Source: Methylovirgula sp. HY1 (lineage in GTDB: Bacteria; Pseudomonadota; Alphaproteobacteria; Rhizobiales; Beijerinckiaceae). Taken from it: a stretch of DNA of 64,000 bases. Below the pieces are notes generated by a model. That model made no database searches. It was given only the letters and a program-made list of their open reading frames with translations, and was not told the origin of the DNA. Position numbers and translations under genes: made by a program. Within the stretch, counting starts at the first letter, position 1. The number at the start of each line of letters is the position of its first letter. Positions 14,358 through 34,221 of this stretch are shown here, piece by piece. The stretch lies in contig NZ_CP073764.1 of assembly GCF_019343105.1 (NCBI RefSeq), positions 62,001 through 126,000 of the forward strand. The letters are read 5' to 3'.

Positions 14358-14723
14358 ATGCGCTCTGGAAAACGCGTTGTCCTGGTCGCCTGCGCTTTGC
14401 TCGGCGCCGTGTCGAGTGCCAATGCGGCCGGCATTTTGGGTAAATGGAAGCGGCCGAACGGTACGATCGCCGATGTTTATATGTGCGGCGCAAAATTGTG
14501 CGGCAAGATCATCGCGGGCCAGCCGACCGGCTTCGAGATGTTTCACGGCATGACCATGGTCAGCCAGATGCAGTGGCAGGGTTCGCAGATGAAACATCCG
14601 AGCATGCCCAGCTTCATGACCTTCAACGGCACAGTGCGACTGAGCGGCGAGGTTTTGAAAGTCAAAGGCTGTGCCGTCGGCCAATCCATGTGCGATGAGG
14701 AAACTTGGACGCGTCTGCGTTGA
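14358..14723 (+). CDS. Secreted DUF2147-like small protein
   Basis: 121 residues. Signal peptide MRSGKRVVLVACALLGAVSS then ANA. The mature part starts GILGKWKRPNGTIADVY, has the paired-cysteine segment MCGAKLCGKIIAG, and ends WTRLR, as in the DUF2147 family of periplasmic proteins. A ribosome site GGGGGA stands before ATG 14358, better than ATG 14346. A perfect palindrome lies upstream. It is followed by a DsrC paralogue after 109 bases, so the two may be co-transcribed. Molecular role unknown. Confidence 0.75.
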   Translation: MRSGKRVVLVACALLGAVSSANAAGILGKWKRPNGTIADVYMCGAKLCGKIIAGQPTGFEMFHGMTMVSQMQWQGSQMKHPSMPSFMTFNGTVRLSGEVLKVKGCAVGQSMCDEETWTRLR

Positions 14724-14832
14724 CGCGCTCGGCTTGATTTGCGCTGGCGCCAATGTGTCGGAAACGGCATCGATTGGGCGGGTACTTTTTGAGCGTGCAT
14801 CGGAGTGCGCTTTCCTGGAAATGGAGGGCCTC

Positions 14833-15147
14833 ATGATGGGAGTGCCGGTGGATTCCGATGGCTATCTCACCGATCCGAGCGATTGGAGCGAAGCGTGGGC
14901 GCGCGATGTCGCGCGCTCGCTTGCGATTGAACTGACGGACGAACATTGGGAGGCGCTGCGGTTTATGCGTGCCTTTTTCGAGGAGCACCAAGTCGCTCCC
15001 GATGCGCGCTTCGTCATAAGGCATCTTACCGCTGTGCGGGGCGCCCACCGCAACCGTTTGTTCGAGCTGTTTCCTCAGGGCGGCTACGCGGGACAAGCCT
15101 GCAAACTTGCCGGCATGCGCCGCCCGCGGGCCTGGAGCACGGGCTGA
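14833..15147 (+). CDS. DsrC/TusE paralogue retaining only the internal Cys
   Basis: About 104 residues with the DsrC fold: DSDGYLTDPSDWSEAWARDVA, ELTDEHWEALRFMRAF, and the C-terminal arm QACKLAGMRRPRAW. The cysteine of QAC corresponds to the internal CysB of DsrC. The near-terminal CysA is replaced by Trp in RAW, with STG ending the protein. TusE-type single-cysteine paralogues keep the opposite one, so this is an uncommon pattern. It cannot form the intramolecular disulfide or trisulfide of true DsrC. ATG 14833 follows GGAGGG; ATG 14821 and 14836 are possible. It lies in the sulfur region, 109 bases after the DUF2147 gene. Confidence 0.88.
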   Translation: MMGVPVDSDGYLTDPSDWSEAWARDVARSLAIELTDEHWEALRFMRAFFEEHQVAPDARFVIRHLTAVRGAHRNRLFELFPQGGYAGQACKLAGMRRPRAWSTG

Positions 15148-15310: not shown

Positions 15311-15580
15311 TCAGTCAGCGGGCTTTGGGCTGGCTTGATCGGCGTCCTGAGATGCGTCCTGTGGAGTCTGCGCGCCGGGACCCTCTGCCCAGTCGCGCAT
15401 GGCTCGACTCCATTGTGCGGCGGTCGCGGCGTCCAGATCCAGAATGGTGTAACGGCCGCCTTCGCGGATCGTCACGCGCAGCAGGCGCATGCCACTTTCG
15501 AAATCGACGTCGTCCAAACGTATCTCGCGACCGTAGGGCGCTATGATCGTCTCCCGCCTCGTCTTGTGTGTGTCGGTCAT
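15311..15580 (-). CDS. Small unknown protein coupled to the TauD operon
   Basis: 89 residues, not recognised. It has a compact region (REIRLDDVDFESGMRLLRVT, IREGGRYTILDLDAATAAQW) that looks like a small beta-rich domain, followed by a disordered Gln/Ala/Asp tail. Its ATG overlaps the stop of the preceding 66-residue gene by four bases (ATGA), strong evidence of translational coupling. It is the last gene of a three-gene run TauD - 66 aa - 89 aa, adjacent to and divergent from dsrAB. It could bind the oxygenase or its substrate; no evidence beyond position. Confidence 0.75.
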   Translation of the reverse strand: MTDTHKTRRETIIAPYGREIRLDDVDFESGMRLLRVTIREGGRYTILDLDAATAAQWSRAMRDWAEGPGAQTPQDASQDADQASPKPAD

Positions 15581-15777
15581 TCCTTGAGCCTTTCCGCTCG
15601 ATAAAAAGCAAGTTCGAGCCGCGTCTCCCATTTCTGCGGCGTGCCCGGGTATTCCGGCTTGATGTCGAAGTACAAATGGATCTCGCCTTGGCGGGCGCAT
15701 TCGATGACGAGATCTTCGAGTTCGCCGAAACTGGTTACCTCCGGATGATGAATAATGAGATCGCTGATTTGAACCAT
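15577..15777 (-). CDS. 66-residue unknown protein in TauD operon
   Basis: Small acidic soluble protein: it begins MVQISDLIIHHPEVTSFGEL, then DLVIECARQGEIHLYFDIKP, and ends AFYRAERLKE. I do not recognise the family. Starts ten bases after the TauD-type gene ends and overlaps the next gene by four bases. The start at 15777 is favoured by AGGAGG-like spacing (GGAGGATAAGC) before it. Being between an oxygenase and another mini-protein, and beside dsrAB, suggests a dedicated three-protein unit. Confidence 0.78.
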   Translation of the reverse strand: MVQISDLIIHHPEVTSFGELEDLVIECARQGEIHLYFDIKPEYPGTPQKWETRLELAFYRAERLKE

Positions 15778-15787
15778 GCTTATCCTC

Positions 15788-16726
15788 CTATGTCGCATTG
15801 GATCCGATGCGGCCGCGGTATCGCACTCTGAAAAGCAAGCGGCCGCCTTCATTGGACGCGGCGAAGGCGCTTCGATCGTGCAGCACGTTGTTGCAGATCA
15901 GCCCTTGGCCTGGCTGCAGACGCAGCCGGAGCACGAGCGGGTCCGTCTCGAGAATATGCTCCAACGCCGAGACTGCACGGCGGGTCTGTTCGTCATCGCG
16001 CCAGGCAATGTTGCGCTTGCGGGCGGTGTAGCGCATGCCGAGCGTGCCCGTCGTGGGATCGACGAAAAATACCGGCCCCACATTTTCCGCGCGAACTTGG
16101 CCATTGTCTTCGAAATTGGCCGGGATGCGCATGGCTGCGGGATGCATCAGCGCATCGATATGACCAGGGTCGAGATCCCTCAGGCGAATATAGGCGATTT
16201 CGGGATCGAGAAGCCGGTTGTCCCCGCCTTCGTCAGCGCTTCTGACGCAATGCAGCAGCATCGCCCCGATATAATGAGCCGCAGACTCAAAATTGTAATA
16301 GCCGTCGGTGTGCCAGCTGATCGGTCGGTCCGAATAGGGGATATATCCCAACCGTCCTCCGCTTTGGACAACCTCGATGCGCACAATGCCGTCGGCTTCG
16401 GCGGATCGATGATCTTCCAGGGTGTTCAGACCGAAAGTCGCGCCCAAAGTCCGAAGGCTGCGACGAAGCTCCCATTCGGATCGATTGGCCGGGAAGACAT
16501 AGAGCGCCATATTGCTTTTGAGACAACGTTCGCTGATTGCCGTCTTCTCGCGCGCTGTAAGTTCGTTTGGGTCGCGAATCTCAACCAAAAGATCATCTGC
16601 ACATAAGGGGTAGTGTTCCAGTTTTGAATCGCGCCAGCTTCGATAAGCGGCATCGTCATCGAGATCGAACGCATTGCCGCTCCGCAGCAAGCTGAGGGTC
16701 CCTACAATCCCGTACGCCGCTCCCAT
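15788..16726 (-). CDS. TauD/TfdA-family Fe(II)/2-oxoglutarate dioxygenase
   Basis: 312 residues. The iron facial triad is visible: His and Asp in SWHTDGYYN and the distal His in CNNVLHDRSAF, with the 2-oxoglutarate-binding Arg in LLFRVRYRGR. The N-terminal third includes LKSNMALYVFPANRSEW, as in TauD-like enzymes. The family hydroxylates sulfonates, sulfate esters and many other small molecules; the substrate here is unknown. Start at 16726 is supported by GGAGGAAGGGCC, better than 16789. Divergent from dsrA across 560 bases and followed by two small coupled genes. Possible role in sulfonate or organosulfur use feeding the Dsr pathway; inference. Confidence 0.88.
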   Translation of the reverse strand: MGAAYGIVGTLSLLRSGNAFDLDDDAAYRSWRDSKLEHYPLCADDLLVEIRDPNELTAREKTAISERCLKSNMALYVFPANRSEWELRRSLRTLGATFGLNTLEDHRSAEADGIVRIEVVQSGGRLGYIPYSDRPISWHTDGYYNFESAAHYIGAMLLHCVRSADEGGDNRLLDPEIAYIRLRDLDPGHIDALMHPAAMRIPANFEDNGQVRAENVGPVFFVDPTTGTLGMRYTARKRNIAWRDDEQTRRAVSALEHILETDPLVLRLRLQPGQGLICNNVLHDRSAFAASNEGGRLLFRVRYRGRIGSNAT

Positions 16727-17287
16727 GGCCCTTCCTCCCGGGCAGTGCGGACGCCGCCTTTTTTGTAAAGGCAATTCGTACATCCGCATATTATCATATT
16801 CGTCTAATCACATTAGCAGCGCGAGTCTCGGAACGGAAGCCGCAATCGCCCTTGGCGCATGCTCTCGGGAGTGCCATTGCCGGAGTGAGACGCACATTGC
16901 AACTGCGGGACCGCATTGGAAACAAACGCGTTTTAAGAAAATAAATATTCACACATACGTATGTATTGATGTTTGATAACGTCTGTGACATGATTATAAA
17001 AATAGGTCATTTGCGAAGCCTGAGGCTTCGACGAGTGTCCCGCATAATAAGACGCCGATGAGCGGATTTTTGGGAGGTTATTGTCGCGCCAACGCGACCT
17101 TCTATCCTGACATCCGTATCTCTCGATATCGTTGACCGATGTGGCCAACGGCTGCGGGAATTTGCGTCTAAAAACCGGGCCTCGAACGGCAATTTGAAGC
17201 AATGAGGTGCGCCGCCGTCGGTGCGCACGTGGGGGATACGTCGGTCGAACGCCAAAGTGCGGCGCATCGACAGAAGGAGACAAGCAC
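16727..17287. promoter_or_regulatory. Divergent promoter region, TauD operon / dsr operon
   Basis: 560 bases with no gene. Contains ATATTCGTCTAATC at 16796-16809, whose complement (GATTAGACGAATAT) resembles the arsR direct repeats, and an AT-rich stretch with the palindrome ACATACGTATGT around 16953-16964. The dsr promoter must lie here; a sigma-54 match near 17139 fails on spacing. The ribosome site AGAAGGAGA precedes dsrA. Confidence 0.45.
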
Positions 17288-18610
17288 ATGTCGGATGACA
17301 AGATTACGCACGAAAACGGTGGCGCCGATCATGTCGGCAAGAACGTAAATGCCCAACATCCCACGCCAATGCTCGATGAGCTCGAATCGGGACCGTGGCC
17401 GAGCTTTGTCACTGGCTTGAAGCGCCTACGCGATGCGGGTGACAAGCAATATGCGCCGATGATGAATGACCTGCTTGGCCAGCTTGAGCATTCTTATGAG
17501 GAACGTCTCGGATATTGGAAAGGCGGGACCGTGTCGGTCTTCGGTTATGGCGGCGGTGTCATTCCGCGGTTTTCCGAAGTCGCCAGCCAATACCCGGCGT
17601 CCAAAGAATTCCATACGCTTCGCGTTCAGCCGCCGGCTGGAATGCATTATGATACCGATATTTTGCGCAAGCTTTGCGACATCTGGGAACGCCACGGCTC
17701 GGGCCTGATCGCCTTCCACGGCCAGAGCGGCGACATCATGTTCCAAGGATGCACTACGGAAAATGTTCAAAAAGCTTTCGATGAGTTGAACGAAGTCGGC
17801 TTCGATCTCGGTGGTGCCGGCCCGGCGCTGCGGACATCGATGAGCTGTGTCGGGCATGCCCGCTGCGAAATGTCCTGCTACGACGAAGTGAAAGCGCATC
17901 GAAGCGTCATCAATGAATTTCTCGACGAAATGCACCGGCCGGCGTTGCCATACAAGTTCAAGTTCAAATTTTCCGGTTGCGGCAATGACTGCGTCAATGC
18001 TGTTCATCGCGCCGATTTCGCCGTCATCGGCACCTGGCGCGACGATATGAAGGTCAACCAGGAGGAAGTGAAGGCTTATGTCGCCGAAGCCGGTCGCAAA
18101 TATACAATCGATCACGTCATCGCAATGTGCCCGACACGGGCTTTGAGCCTCAATGATGACGACACACTCGACGTCGACAATAAATCATGCGTGCGCTGCA
18201 TGCATTGCATCAACGTCATGAACAAGGCGCTGGCGCCGGGCGATGACCGCGGTGCTTCGATTCTCATGGGCGGCAAGCGTGCATTGAAGGTCGGTGATCT
18301 CATGGGCACGATGATCATTCCTTTCATCAAGCTCGAATCCGACGAGGATTACGAGAACCTCGTCGCCTTGGCCCGGCGGATGCTGGAATTCTTCGCGGAT
18401 AATGCGCTTGAGCATGAGCGGGTCGGCGAAACCATGGACCGAATCGGGCTGCCGGCCTTTTTGGAAGCCGTCGGCATCGAGCCAGACCCGAACATGGTCA
18501 ATCATCCGCGGACGTCCTGCTATGTGCGGACGGATGATTTTACCGACGAGGCCGAAAAATATTTCGAACGCAAGGCGCGCGAAGCGGGACTCAATATCGC
18601 GGCGGAATGA
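17288..18610 (+). CDS. dsrA: DsrA, dissimilatory sulfite reductase alpha (reverse type)
   Basis: Cytoplasmic siroheme-[4Fe-4S] enzyme; in sulfur oxidisers it forms sulfite from DsrC-bound sulfur. 440 residues. The siroheme cluster ligands are seen as CVGHARC (CX5C) near residue 187 and CGNDC (CX3C) near 231. The inserted ferredoxin domain has MCPTRAL near 280 and CVRCMHCINVM near 300. ATG 17288 was chosen for AGAAGGAGA upstream. It is the first gene of a co-directional run through dsrP and beyond. The presence of dsrL, dsrEFH and tusA marks the oxidative (rDsr) form. Confidence 0.98.
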   Translation: MSDDKITHENGGADHVGKNVNAQHPTPMLDELESGPWPSFVTGLKRLRDAGDKQYAPMMNDLLGQLEHSYEERLGYWKGGTVSVFGYGGGVIPRFSEVASQYPASKEFHTLRVQPPAGMHYDTDILRKLCDIWERHGSGLIAFHGQSGDIMFQGCTTENVQKAFDELNEVGFDLGGAGPALRTSMSCVGHARCEMSCYDEVKAHRSVINEFLDEMHRPALPYKFKFKFSGCGNDCVNAVHRADFAVIGTWRDDMKVNQEEVKAYVAEAGRKYTIDHVIAMCPTRALSLNDDDTLDVDNKSCVRCMHCINVMNKALAPGDDRGASILMGGKRALKVGDLMGTMIIPFIKLESDEDYENLVALARRMLEFFADNALEHERVGETMDRIGLPAFLEAVGIEPDPNMVNHPRTSCYVRTDDFTDEAEKYFERKAREAGLNIAAE

Positions 18611-27000: not shown

Positions 27001-28218
27001 ATGGCGAGGCTGACATTCCAAAGACTCGATAGGTTCAGCCCGTCATTTTGGGCGCTTATCGGGCTGAATGTTGTGATGGTGGCGCTTGGACTCAGCGCCG
27101 CTTTATATATGGAAAGCCGCGGTCATATCGTGACCGGCATGAGCAATCAGATTGTCTGGGGCCTCCCGCATGTTTTCGCGGTATTCCTAATTGTTTCGGC
27201 GTCGGGCGCGCTCAATATCGCGTCGATATCGTCGGTGTTCAATCGTCCGGCCTATAAGCCTTATGCGCGGCTTTCTGGCATTCTCGCGATTGCTCTGCTG
27301 GTCGGCGGCCTCACCATTCTAGTGCTCGATCTCGGTCGTCCGGACCGTCTGATCGTCGCGATGACGACCTATAATTTCAAATCGATATTTGCCTGGAACA
27401 TTTATCTTTATTCCGGCTTCGTCGTGGTCGTCGGCGCCTATCTTTTCGCAATGATGGACCGCCGGGTCTCGCAATCCAAGACAACCGGCAAGGTCATGGG
27501 GATGACCGCCTTCGTGTGGCGCTTGATCCTGACCACGGGCACAGGCTCGATCTTTGGCTTCCTCGTCGCCCGCGAAGCCTATAACAGCGCGGTCATGGCA
27601 CCGCTCTTCATTGCAGCTTCCTTCCTTTACGGGCTCGCGTTCACAGTTCTCGTGCTCGTTTTGACCTCGCGCGAGACGACCGAAGATCTGATGACTGAAG
27701 AGATGCTCGGCAAGTTCAGAGCGCTGTTGATAATCTTTTCTCTGGCCTTGCTCTATTTCACCGCCCTTTTTCATTTAACAAAGCTCTACGCCACCAAATT
27801 TCATGGCGTCGAAGCCTTCCTGCTTCTTAAAGGGGGACTCTATCCGCTCGTATTCTGGCTCGGTCAGATTGTGATCGGTTCTATTCTGCCCATTCTGCTG
27901 CTGGTCTTCAGGGGGGCGGGGGTCGATGGCCGCCGGACGATTACGATTGCGTCTGGCCTGTTCCTCATCGGCGGGCTGGCGCAGATGTATGTCATCATCA
28001 TCGGCGGTCAGGCCTATCCGTTGAATCTGTTTCCCGGAATGGTGGTGTCGAGTTCGTTCTTCGATGGGCAGATTGGCCATTATTGGCCGTCGCTGCCTGA
28101 GCTCTTGCTTGGGGCGGGTGGGTTTTCGTTCTCGATGCTGATTGTGGTGCTCGCTTTGCGGCTGATGCCGTTCCTTCCTCGTTTTTATCGCCAAGAGCCG
28201 GAGGAAATGACTCAATGA
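27001..28218 (+). CDS. dsrP: DsrP, NrfD-like integral membrane subunit
   Basis: 405 residues with about ten membrane helices and no cofactor motifs, as expected for NrfD/PsrC-type quinone-interacting proteins. Segments include FWALIGLNVVMVALGLSAAL, VFAVFLIVSASGALNIASI and LPVLLLVF-like helices through the C-terminus. It works with DsrO and DsrJ to exchange electrons with quinones. Its stop overlaps the next gene by four bases (ATGA), so the TrpD2-like gene is coupled to it. Confidence 0.95.
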   Translation: MARLTFQRLDRFSPSFWALIGLNVVMVALGLSAALYMESRGHIVTGMSNQIVWGLPHVFAVFLIVSASGALNIASISSVFNRPAYKPYARLSGILAIALLVGGLTILVLDLGRPDRLIVAMTTYNFKSIFAWNIYLYSGFVVVVGAYLFAMMDRRVSQSKTTGKVMGMTAFVWRLILTTGTGSIFGFLVAREAYNSAVMAPLFIAASFLYGLAFTVLVLVLTSRETTEDLMTEEMLGKFRALLIIFSLALLYFTALFHLTKLYATKFHGVEAFLLLKGGLYPLVFWLGQIVIGSILPILLLVFRGAGVDGRRTITIASGLFLIGGLAQMYVIIIGGQAYPLNLFPGMVVSSSFFDGQIGHYWPSLPELLLGAGGFSFSMLIVVLALRLMPFLPRFYRQEPEEMTQ

Positions 28219-29219
28219 CCGAGCCACATCCGTTCGCACGCTTTATTAAGATTCTCGGCCGCGGCAAGACGCTGACACGCTCCTTGACGATCGAAGAGGC
28301 CGAAGAGGCCATGGGGATGATTGTCGCCGGCGAGGTTCTGCCGGAACAAATCGGCGCGTTTCTCATGCTGCTTCGTATCAAGGAAGAAAGCGGCGAGGAA
28401 ATCGCTGGATTTGTCCGCGCGGTTCGGGCGTCGATGAAGCGTCCATCATCGCTGCCGGTGGTCGATGTCGATTGGTCGTCTTATGCGGGAAAGCGGCGGC
28501 AGCTTCCATGGTTCATTCTGGTGACGCAAATTCTCGCACGTAACGGTTGGCGTGTTTTTATGCACGGAACCGAAGGCCATACCGCGGGGCGGCTCTATAC
28601 ACGCGAGGCTCTAGCGCGCATTGGCTTTCCTGTCGCCGGCGGTTTCAGCGAGGCCGCGGCGCATATCGCGGAACGAAATTTTGCCTATCTGCCGCTCGAA
28701 CACATAAGCCCAAAGCTGGCGGAACTCATCGAATTGCGGCCGATTCTCGGTTTGCGCTCGCCGGTGCATACGTTGGCGCGGATGATCAATCCTTTCGACG
28801 CGCCCTGTGCGATGCAGGCTGTGTTCCACCCAGGCTATATGAAAATTCATCGCGACGCGGCTTTGCTCCTTGGTATGAAACGAATGTCGGTGTTTCGCGG
28901 TGAGGGCGGCGAAATTGAGCGGCGCCCGAACAAATCTTGTGACGTCATGACAATAATGGACGGAACATTGATTGAGGATCGCTGGCCTGCGATTTTGTCG
29001 GATCCGCGGCTGACGCAAGACGAAAGCATGGATCTCGATCGGATGGAGGCGCTGTGGCGCGGCGAAGTCACCGATGATTATGCCGTCGCCGCGGTCACCG
29101 GGACGCTCGCAATCGCGCTCAAGACGATGGGCATCGACGGCGATTGTGAAAGTGCCCAAAAACATGCCGAATATTTATGGAGCCAACGTGACAGGAGCCG
29201 CCTCGCGGCGGTTGCGTGA
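28215..29219 (+). CDS. TrpD2/YbiB-like glycosyltransferase-3-family protein in dsr operon
   Basis: 334 residues resembling anthranilate phosphoribosyltransferase fold proteins (glycosyl transferase family 3). The small helical domain is EEAEEAMGMIVAGEVLPEQIGAFLMLLRIK. The usual phosphoribosyl motif GTGGD is absent; the matching position reads VDVDWSSYAGKRRQLPW, which argues against TrpD activity and for the TrpD2/YbiB group, reported to bind nucleic acid. Further family motifs: LRPILGLRSPVHTLARMINP and FHPGYMKIHRDAA. ATGA overlap with dsrP and a 32-base overlap with dsrN place it firmly in the operon. Its sulfur-related role is not known. Confidence 0.88.
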   Translation: MTEPHPFARFIKILGRGKTLTRSLTIEEAEEAMGMIVAGEVLPEQIGAFLMLLRIKEESGEEIAGFVRAVRASMKRPSSLPVVDVDWSSYAGKRRQLPWFILVTQILARNGWRVFMHGTEGHTAGRLYTREALARIGFPVAGGFSEAAAHIAERNFAYLPLEHISPKLAELIELRPILGLRSPVHTLARMINPFDAPCAMQAVFHPGYMKIHRDAALLLGMKRMSVFRGEGGEIERRPNKSCDVMTIMDGTLIEDRWPAILSDPRLTQDESMDLDRMEALWRGEVTDDYAVAAVTGTLAIALKTMGIDGDCESAQKHAEYLWSQRDRSRLAAVA

Positions 29220-30633
29220 GCGCATGGGACGGCTGTTTCTTTCGGCGATCCACAAATCCTCCGGAAAGACGACAGTCTCGCTCGGCCTCGCGGCTGCGCT
29301 CACCGCACGCGGGCTTGCGGTCCAGACCTTCAAGAAAGGCCCGGACTATATCGATCCGATGTGGCTCGAACGGGCGAGCGGGCGACCTTGCTATAATCTC
29401 GATTTTAACACCCAAAGCGAAGCCGAGATAGTCGCCGCGTTTCGTCGTTGCGCGCAAGGCAAGGATGTGACGCTGATCGAGGGCAATAAGGGATTGCATG
29501 ACGGAATGGACCCACGCGGCAGCGATTCGAGCGCTGCTCTCGCCAAGCTGCTCGGCGCGCCGGTCGTTCTGATCGTCGATGTCATTGGGATGATGCGCGG
29601 CATCGCGCCTTTGGTCCTCGGCTATGCAACGTTCGATCCGGGTGTGCGCCTCGGCGGCGTGATCTTGAACAAGATCGGTTTGCCGAGGCAGGAGAGCAAG
29701 CTTCGCCAGGCGCTCGAAAACTATACGGATATTCCGGTTCTCGGCGCCATCGGTCGCGATGAAGACTTGAGCGTCAACGAGCGGCATTTAGGCTTGACGC
29801 CGCCGAACGAGACGGCGGATCTGAGAGCAACCGTCAACCGCATCGGCGATGTGGTGGCGCGGGGGGTGGATGTCGATCGTTTGATCGAGATCGCGGCATC
29901 CGCCGGTCACGTCGATGCTCCCGAGCCGATCAAGCCCGTCGGCGTCGCCGACCTGCGCATTGCCGTCGCGCGAGATGCCGCCTTCGGATTCTATTACGCG
30001 GACGATTTTCTGGCGCTCGAGCGCGCGGGTGCACAACTCATCTTTTTTGACGCTGTGAGAGATGAGAAGTTGCCGGCCGCCGACGCCCTTTTTATTGGCG
30101 GCGGGTTCCCCGAAACACAGGCTGCGGCTTTGGCCGCGAACACGTCCTTACGAGGGCAGGTGAGGGAGGCGATCGCGGGGGGGCTTCCGACTTATGCCGA
30201 ATGCGGCGGCCTGATGTATCTCACGCGATCGATCCATTGGCGTGGCGAGACGCATGAGATGGTTGGCGTCATTCCGGCCGACACGGTGGTGCGGGATCGG
30301 CCGCAGGGTCGCGGGCTCGTGCTTTTGGAAGAGACGGGCGAAGGTCCTTGGCCAAATCGGTCAGAGACGGCTCCGATCGCGGCACATGAATTCCATCATG
30401 CCGCCTTGGAGAATGTCGATCCAAACTGCCGCTTCGCCTATCGCATGCGCCGCGGCTTCGGCGTCGATGGAAAGAGCGACGGAATCGTCATCGGCAATAT
30501 GCTCGCGAGCTTCAGCCATTTGCGCGACACATCCAGGCATCATTGGGCTGATCGTTTCGTGAGCTTCATTCGGGAGAGGCGCGTCGGCGCTCCTAAAGAC
30601 CCGCCAATAAGCCGCTTGATCGCGGCGGAATAA
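29188..30633 (+). CDS. dsrN: DsrN, siroheme amidase (CobB/CbiA-like)
   Basis: 481 residues, glutamine-dependent cobyrinate a,c-diamide synthase family. ATP-binding HKSSGKTTVSLGLA, GPDYIDPMW, the second motif IEGNKGLHDG, and the class I amidotransferase part with catalytic Cys in YAECGGLMYL and a late HEFHHA. In dsr loci it amidates siroheme to the siroamide used by DsrAB. Start choice: GTG 29188 with GGAG six bases before; ATG 29164 and ATG 29224 are also in frame, and the family core begins at the last. It overlaps the TrpD2-like gene. Confidence 0.93.
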   Translation: MTGAASRRLRERMGRLFLSAIHKSSGKTTVSLGLAAALTARGLAVQTFKKGPDYIDPMWLERASGRPCYNLDFNTQSEAEIVAAFRRCAQGKDVTLIEGNKGLHDGMDPRGSDSSAALAKLLGAPVVLIVDVIGMMRGIAPLVLGYATFDPGVRLGGVILNKIGLPRQESKLRQALENYTDIPVLGAIGRDEDLSVNERHLGLTPPNETADLRATVNRIGDVVARGVDVDRLIEIAASAGHVDAPEPIKPVGVADLRIAVARDAAFGFYYADDFLALERAGAQLIFFDAVRDEKLPAADALFIGGGFPETQAAALAANTSLRGQVREAIAGGLPTYAECGGLMYLTRSIHWRGETHEMVGVIPADTVVRDRPQGRGLVLLEETGEGPWPNRSETAPIAAHEFHHAALENVDPNCRFAYRMRRGFGVDGKSDGIVIGNMLASFSHLRDTSRHHWADRFVSFIRERRVGAPKDPPISRLIAAE

Positions 30634-30878: not shown

Positions 30879-32384
30879 ATGGACCACCTGCCGATCTTTC
30901 TGGACGTCAAGGACAAGTGGGTCGCGGTCATTGGCGGCGGTGTTGCCGCCGCGCGCAAGGCCGAGATGCTCTTGCGCGCCGGTGCACAGGTGACCGCTTT
31001 CGCGCCCGTGCTCGATGAAGAATTTTTCGAACTGCGGGATCATCCCGCATTCGAATACGTCGCCAATGAGCCGAAGCAACGCGAACTCCGCAGTTTCTTC
31101 CTGTGCTTCGTCGCGACGGGAGATAGCCAGCGTGATGAGCACTATCATGGCGTTGCCAAACAGTCCGGCTTGCTGGTCAACGTCGCCGACAATCCGAAGC
31201 TTTGTGACTTTGTCATGCCGTCGATCGTGGACCGGAGCCCGGTCGTGGTCGCCATTTCGACGGCCGGCGCATCGCCGATTCTCGGCCGTATGTTGAAAGC
31301 GCGGATCGAGGCGCTGATTCCCGGCGCTTATGGGCGGCTTGCAAGCTTTGTCGGGCGGTTCCGGGCTGTCGTTTCCGCGAGCGTGCCCACGGCGGAATCG
31401 CGCCGCCGATTTTGGGAGAACGTGCTCGATGGGCCGGTTGCCGAGATGGTGCTGGCCGGCAATGAGCCGACGGCGGTGGCGATGCTCGCTGAAGAAATCG
31501 AACGTGGCGCGCAGGATCGCCCGATCGGCGAGGTCTATCTCGTCGGTGGCGGGCCGGGCGATCCGGACCTCCTGACGTTCCGCGCGCTACGCCTCATGCA
31601 GAGAGCGGATGTCGTGCTTTACGATCGGCTGGTCGATCCCGCCATCGTTGATCTGGCGCGGCGCGACGCCGAGCGGATCTATGTCGGCAAGCGCCGCAAT
31701 GATCATGCCGTGCCGCAAGAAGAGATCAGCGAACTTCTGGTTCGCCTTGCGCTCGAAGGCAAACGCGTGCTGCGGCTGAAGGGAGGCGATCCTTTCATGT
31801 TCGGGCGCGGCGGCGAAGAGATCGAAAAGCTCGTCGCGCACAATATTCCCTTCCAAGTGTGCCCTGGAATTACCGCGGCGGCCGGCTGCTCGGCCTATTC
31901 CGGCATCCCGTTGACGCATCGCGATCATGCGCAATCCTGCGTCTTCGTCACCGGCCATGGCAAGAACGGGCCGATCGAGCGCGACTGGAGCGCGCTGCTG
32001 CATCCTGGCCAGACGGTGGTGATCTATATGGGCTTGGCACAGCTCGAGCGGCTGATGCGGGACTGCATGGCGCAGGGCGTCGACCCGGAGCTGCCGGCGG
32101 CGGTCGTCGACAATGGAACCCGGGCGAATCAGCGTGTCGTGACAGGTACGCTGCGGACCCTCGCGGCGCGGGCACGCGCGGCCCAGTTGCGTGGACCGAC
32201 GATCATCATCATCGGTTCGGTCGTGGCGTTGCGTGATCAGCTCAACTGGTTCGCATCCGAGCGCGACGAGGCCGTCGAACCCAGCGAGAGCGGCTTACGC
32301 TCCGTTGCCGTAGATGTGGAACATCTTGAAACAATTGAAAATGAAGCAGGGAGGGCGGTATGCTCACAAACGATGATGTTCTGA
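30879..32384 (+). CDS. cysG: CysG, siroheme synthase (trifunctional)
   Basis: 501 residues. N-terminal CysG-B/Met8-like domain for precorrin-2 dehydrogenation and ferrochelation (VIGGGVAAARKAEMLLRAGA; VATGDSQRDE), then the uroporphyrinogen-III C-methyltransferase domain (VYLVGGGPGDPDLLTFRALR; GDPFMFGRGGEE; PGITAAAG). It makes siroheme for DsrAB from uroporphyrinogen III. It follows the mini-protein by 44 bases and overlaps the Mrp gene by 25, so it is part of the dsr transcript. The C-terminus has a Glu-rich extra tail of about 40 residues. Confidence 0.96.
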   Translation: MDHLPIFLDVKDKWVAVIGGGVAAARKAEMLLRAGAQVTAFAPVLDEEFFELRDHPAFEYVANEPKQRELRSFFLCFVATGDSQRDEHYHGVAKQSGLLVNVADNPKLCDFVMPSIVDRSPVVVAISTAGASPILGRMLKARIEALIPGAYGRLASFVGRFRAVVSASVPTAESRRRFWENVLDGPVAEMVLAGNEPTAVAMLAEEIERGAQDRPIGEVYLVGGGPGDPDLLTFRALRLMQRADVVLYDRLVDPAIVDLARRDAERIYVGKRRNDHAVPQEEISELLVRLALEGKRVLRLKGGDPFMFGRGGEEIEKLVAHNIPFQVCPGITAAAGCSAYSGIPLTHRDHAQSCVFVTGHGKNGPIERDWSALLHPGQTVVIYMGLAQLERLMRDCMAQGVDPELPAAVVDNGTRANQRVVTGTLRTLAARARAAQLRGPTIIIIGSVVALRDQLNWFASERDEAVEPSESGLRSVAVDVEHLETIENEAGRAVCSQTMMF

Positions 32385-33882: not shown

Positions 33883-34221
33883 ATGGCATTCGAATTCGGA
33901 GGCAAAACGGTCGCGACGACCGCAAGCGGCTATTTGGTCGACCAGGACGATTGGAACAGGGAATTGGCCGAATATCTCGCCGGCCTTGAAAAAATCACGC
34001 TCACAGATCGGCATTGGGATCTGATCGACTATCTGCGCAGCGAATATTTCGACAATAATCAGAGCACGCCGAATACGCGTACCATTCTCAAGGCAATGTC
34101 CGAGAAATGGAACGCAAAGCTCGACCAGAAGACGCTCTACGACCTCTTCCCCCTTGATCCATCAAAGCAAGGCGGCCGTATCGCGGGATTGCCGGAAAGT
34201 CGCCGAAAAGGCGGCTACTGA
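33883..34221 (+). CDS. DsrC paralogue lacking both C-terminal cysteines
   Basis: 112 residues with the full DsrC fold: SGYLVDQDDWNRELAEYLAG, LTDRHWDLIDYLRSEYFDN, and the C-terminal arm SKQGGRIAGLPESRRKGGY. Where DsrC has QAC it has QGG, and the near-terminal Cys is gone; no cysteine is in the protein. It cannot carry sulfur by the known chemistry, so a structural, regulatory or decoy role is more likely, or binding to DsrAB or DsrK as a blocker. Last gene of the dsr run, 34 bases after DUF971. GGGGAAG before ATG. Confidence 0.92.
   Translation: MAFEFGGKTVATTASGYLVDQDDWNRELAEYLAGLEKITLTDRHWDLIDYLRSEYFDNNQSTPNTRTILKAMSEKWNAKLDQKTLYDLFPLDPSKQGGRIAGLPESRRKGGY

Follow-up and report, generated by a model that had tools for sequence, protein, structure and literature searches.

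The three genes that lie divergent from dsrA in the window (the whole stretch of DNA analysed, 64,000 nucleotides of Methylovirgula sp. HY1) form a conserved unit dedicated to the dissimilatory sulfite reductase (Dsr) pathway. This unit is the dsrQ locus of oxidative (reverse) Dsr, and we read it, at a probability of roughly 0.4, as an O2-dependent accessory unit that would act on a target within the Dsr machinery. The trio is located on the minus strand and consists of a TauD/TfdA-family Fe(II)/2-oxoglutarate oxygenase gene (dsrQ, 312 aa, 15788..16726), followed by the genes for a 66-aa helical protein (SP2, 15577..15777) and an 89-aa protein (15311..15580). The oxygenase starts with the ATG at 16726, directly preceded by GGGAGGAA, while an alternative in-frame ATG at 16789 would give a protein of 333 aa. 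A 10-base gap separates the oxygenase stop from the 66-aa ORF, which shares an ATGA overlap (15577-15580) with the 89-aa ORF, and the tight three-gene unit proposed in a sequence-only reading of this DNA was thus confirmed. The intergenic region (16727..17288, approximately 560 bases) leads to the ATG of dsrA at 17289 (oxidative-type dissimilatory sulfite reductase alpha subunit, 17289..18610, plus strand), the first gene of a dsr run with the order dsrABEFHCMKLJOP, a TrpD/YbiB-like glycosyl transferase-family gene (28215-29219), dsrN (CobB/CbiA-type a,c-diamide synthase, 29074..30633, plus strand), and cysG (siroheme synthase, 30879..32384, plus strand). Further on lies a DsrC paralogue without either C-terminal cysteine (33883..34221, plus strand), and a gene for a DsrC-like protein that has kept CysB and lacks the C-terminal CysA (14671..15147, plus strand) is convergent with the trio. 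The TrpD/YbiB-like gene is also present between dsrP and dsrN in two relatives (G036 and G032). The trio is not a chance arrangement, as all three products belong to conserved families (15, 32, and 39 sequences aligned) and both gene order and small spacing recur: across the loci with both small genes (n = 18), the junction of the 66-aa and 89-aa genes overlaps by 4 or 8 bases in 17, and the distance between the oxygenase and the 66-aa gene ranges from -17 to +49.

The oxygenase itself is already known. Lenk et al. 2012 gave the name dsrQ to a tauD-like gene that is divergent from dsr. Their naming is cited in PMC7596348, which also reports dsrQ from further lineages and speculates on the release of sulfite from sulfonates; in PMC6018796, DsrQ is listed as being of unknown function. 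The placement that defines dsrQ, a tauD-like gene opposite to the dsr cluster and upstream of dsrA, was found in the window and in 59 of the 80 best loci described below. The suggestion of the sequence-only reading that sulfite is set free from an organosulfur compound is therefore a rediscovery, as both the gene and the sulfonate speculation were already published. A literature search for dsrQ and dsrU returned no functional account, and a search for DUF6967, the Pfam family of the 89-aa protein, brought up no text that links it to dsr; the 66-aa family is nameless and so offers no search term.

The dedication of the trio to the sulfur pathway was assessed by looking for each protein in one common set of 398 genomes of the phylum. 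DsrA was found in 53 genomes and the oxygenase in 41, with both present in 39 (Fisher p ~1e-39), while dsrA accompanied DUF6967 in 10 out of 10 genomes (p 8e-10) and the 66-aa family in 5 out of 5 (p 4e-5), p-values that overstate the association, as the genomes are non-independent by descent, yet span several classes. Of the two oxygenase genomes without dsrA, one is 65% complete, and the match in the other has the second-lowest score. DUF6967 was present in six of 41 relatives; five of the six had dsrA above the cut-off, and in the sixth a fragment of dsrA adjoins the trio where the contig ends. The claim that the unit is dedicated to sulfur metabolism is thus strongly supported, and the trio did not turn out to reside mainly in genomes devoid of dsr. 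In 31 of the 41 oxygenase genomes both small proteins are absent; twelve of these were included in the tree, where they form one clade, and in the two that were read the order is dsrA-dsrB-dsrL-oxygenase on one strand. Our guess is that the oxygenase genomes without small proteins may be Magnetococcia. None of the ten genus mates of the window genome had dsrA above the cut-off; the dsr cluster and the trio were either gained by the window genome or lost by these ten.

When named genomes were scanned with the oxygenase alignment, at least 592 pattern matches emerged; the best 80 loci were fetched, and they include members of Sulfuricella, Gallionella, Sideroxydans, Thioalkalivibrio, Sedimenticola, Thiomargarita, the Roseobacter clade, and Hyphomicrobiales. 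DsrA was contained in the fetched piece at 59 of these 80 and was divergent in all 59. Three layouts dominate among the best 80, in each of which the genes listed run away from a divergent dsrA: in alphaproteobacteria the oxygenase, the 66-aa gene, and DUF6967, often followed by cysG; in gammaproteobacteria the oxygenase, the 66-aa gene, in some a gene for a 235-aa protein, then genes for a Cas6-family protein and a cysteine-less DsrC; and in the beta type DUF6967, the Cas6-family gene, the cysteine-less DsrC (homologous, as in the gamma type, to the paralogue at 33883 in the window), TusA, and finally the oxygenase. In lineages other than alphaproteobacteria, the 66-aa family and DUF6967 stand in for each other. 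Relatives with the order dsrQ-SP2-DUF6967-cysG have the trio directly adjoining siroheme synthase, and in G036 it is located within the dsr operon as one run (dsrP-trpD-like-dsrN-dsrQ-SP2-DUF6967-cysG), with the end of dsrN overlapping the oxygenase start and cysG directly after DUF6967. Where the oxygenase is located elsewhere than dsrA, dsrA is still present in 18 of the 19 genomes, and a small gene often stays behind beside dsrA, either the 66-aa gene (L131-L133, L138, L139) or DUF6967 (L144, L149, L150, L153, L157), so the small proteins track dsr at least as closely as they track the oxygenase. The possibility that these distant oxygenases are unrelated paralogues was rejected, as they are interspersed with the dsrA-linked ones in the tree and dsrA occurs in 18 of the 19 genomes. 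Such dsrA-distant copies are often found beside genes of anaerobic metabolism, namely NapA, NrdD, and UbiV (L083, L096, L114), a setting that is unexplained by an O2-dependent Dsr accessory function.

Of the two small proteins, both of which the sequence-only reading had left unrecognised, the 66-aa protein is indeed nameless (no family matched in Pfam or NCBIfam), but the 89-aa protein is a member of DUF6967 (PF22295; 88.1 bits, cut-off 27, E 3.5e-25), a family without function. The AlphaFold models of both proteins are confident. That of the 66-aa protein consists mainly of three helices (mean pLDDT 93.6), and its fold search gave no convincing match (best Z 2.4), from which no new fold should be concluded. 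The DUF6967 protein is predicted to form four strands and one helix (mean pLDDT 88.2), and the top structural ranks of this model are PUR-alpha/PUR repeats and PC4-like proteins (8chw_A, Z 8.0, 66 aligned, rmsd 3.5; 5fgo_A, Z 7.7, 62 aligned, rmsd 2.0; 5a4n_A, Z 7.7, 61 aligned, rmsd 2.7), though the best Foldseek E was 0.1 and such values can arise by chance in small beta-alpha folds. Nucleic-acid binding by DUF6967 is accordingly put forward as a lead only, suggested by the model. An alternative is to read the divergent locus as a control module, whose small proteins (DUF6967 with its possible PUR/PC4-like fold, and in other lineages the Cas6-family protein and the cysteine-less DsrC) would adjust dsr expression by binding nucleic acid, while the oxygenase would supply an O2/2-oxoglutarate input. 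The structural ranks of DUF6967, the divergent position beside dsrA, and the occurrence of a Cas6-family gene at roughly 40 beta/gamma loci are in line with such a module; however, Z scores of 7-8 may reflect a common arrangement, profile searches of the PDB found sequence relatives of neither small family (for DUF6967, no PUR/PC4 protein), any regulator or binding site is hypothetical, and dsrQ of G036 is located within the dsr operon, so we consider this reading decidedly unlikely. A further reading, in which DUF6967, the 66-aa family, DsrQ, and in beta/gammaproteobacteria the Cas6-family protein and the cysteine-less DsrC would constitute an O2/2-oxoglutarate-dependent module that controls or matures reverse Dsr by processing nucleic acid or proteins, is a long shot; if true, it would add to aerobic sulfur oxidation a regulatory or maturation layer of which we found no description in the literature.

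The Cas6/Cmx6-family protein (PF09559 at ~200 bits, TIGR02807 above cut-off), with its glycine-rich motif GLGxxRxxGCG, recurs in the cluster divergent from dsrA (L051:11831-12517, L066:11847-12530, L097:8216-8902, and some 40 further beta/gamma loci). No CRISPR-like array was present in the fetched DNA around these genes, and a literature search for Cas6 with dsrA gave no functional account. The 235-aa protein is without a match in Pfam; its gene comes after the 66-aa gene in many dsr loci of gammaproteobacteria (L051:11120-11824, L066:11140-11841) and remains at dsrA where dsrQ is elsewhere.

The oxygenase matches Pfam TauD (PF02668) with 71.6 bits (cut-off 27, E 1.3e-19) and is the sole TauD-family match in the whole genome. 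As the predicted metal ligands H139, D141, and H283 and the predicted 2-oxoglutarate arginine R296 are invariant in 15 homologues, and the motifs WHTDGYY and NNVLHxR stand out in the alignment, DsrQ is predicted to be a working, catalytically complete Fe(II)/2-oxoglutarate oxygenase. Its profile retrieved, as the nearest solved proteins, TmpA (E 8e-9, 38 bits), the oxygenase DfmD, glutarate hydroxylase (GlaH), and gamma-butyrobetaine dioxygenase (BBOX), whereas E. coli TauD did not match (score ~0, E 0.017 in a single-sequence search). In a forced alignment, poor elsewhere, R296 and R300 of DsrQ fall on R266 and R270 of TauD, the latter of which we take to bind the sulfonate of taurine; DsrQ could thus possess an anion-binding arginine and possibly an anionic, even sulfonate, substrate.

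This alignment and the TauD family membership are in line with DsrQ being a sulfonate dioxygenase that would supply Dsr with sulfite cleaved from sulfonates, whether intracellular or imported, an idea already proposed in PMC7596348. The importer test spoke against it: among 15 oxygenase genomes (E. coli controls positive), an SsuA-family binding protein above the cut-off was found in none and TauA in one, with neither in the window genome, a test limited to sulfonate/taurine ABC-binding proteins, as distinct from TRAP and other importers and from internal sulfonates. Nor were any genes for sulfonate transport noticed in the dsrQ neighbourhoods examined. Furthermore, the near-zero score of TauD contrasts with the matches to TmpA, gamma-butyrobetaine, and glutarate hydroxylases, and a sulfonate feeder would leave the small proteins, the DsrC paralogue, TusA, and cysG without a role. 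Oxygenolytic release of sulfite is therefore weakened, retaining the alignment of R300 with TauD R270 on its side, and we regard it as unlikely.

The same profile matches (TmpA at E 8e-9 and an NCBIfam score of 51 bits, BBOX, and GlaH) would suit an enzyme that makes or modifies a small molecule unrelated to Dsr, e.g., a quaternary-ammonium compound in the manner of TmpA, TMLH, or BBOX, and that travels with dsr in chemolithotrophs. All NCBIfam equivalog scores are, however, far below their cut-offs (TmpA 51 vs. 400, TMLH 43.9 vs. 268, gamma-butyrobetaine dioxygenase 29.6 vs. 415 bits), dsrQ is surrounded by Dsr, siroheme, and sulfur-carrier genes, and it lacks dsrA in just 2 of 41 genomes (one of them the 65% complete genome), which makes such a product very improbable.

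A target internal to Dsr is favoured over a sulfonate feeder, although we assign it to DsrQ only tentatively. With O2 and 2-oxoglutarate, DsrQ would hydroxylate a component of the Dsr machinery or trim it by oxidation, most likely in the siroheme/siroamide cofactor route or else a sulfur-carrier or Dsr protein, and the outcome would be a reverse Dsr that functions in O2-using cells. The step is placed near cofactor supply or the sulfur-carrier proteins because dsrN, cysG, DsrC paralogues, and TusA are the recurrent neighbours; the vicinity of cysG and dsrN may, though, merely reflect siroheme supply within dsr clusters. Modification of a Dsr component, the other proposal of the sequence-only reading, is a candidate role that fits these neighbours better than sulfite release does. 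The 66-aa protein and DUF6967 would be small partners at the Dsr machinery and not obligate oxygenase subunits, since dsrQ also occurs without one or the other of them, and either can remain at dsrA when dsrQ is elsewhere.

Among the main routes of sulfur oxidation is reverse Dsr, which dsrQ frequently accompanies; in the sample of 398 genomes, dsrQ almost never occurs without dsr, and the two small families are Dsr-specific. An annotation as "taurine dioxygenase" is thereby turned into a set of testable Dsr accessory genes, the sulfonate idea for dsrQ is left without the expected transport genes, and metagenome surveys are warned that dsrQ should not be counted as sulfonate degradation.

Compared with known systems, the window gene agrees with dsrQ as named by Lenk et al. 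2012 (cited in PMC7596348) in being a TauD-family gene at the same position divergent from dsrA. The passage of PMC7596348 on dsrQ places the gene in sulfur oxidisers that are aerobic chemotrophs and in clones of the Roseobacter clade, and makes no mention of the two small companions, which are part of the trio here; for DUF6967, the link to dsr is shown in this analysis. With E. coli TauD taurine dioxygenase, DsrQ shares the Fe/2OG superfamily and the HxD...H...R pattern, but it differs in the absent profile match, the Dsr gene context, and the lack of a TauA/SsuA partner in most genomes. TmpA, gamma-butyrobetaine dioxygenase, and glutarate 2-hydroxylase are the closest solved sequences by profile and have a similar distal LHxR region, whereas DsrQ falls far under their equivalog cut-offs and is found in a different gene context.
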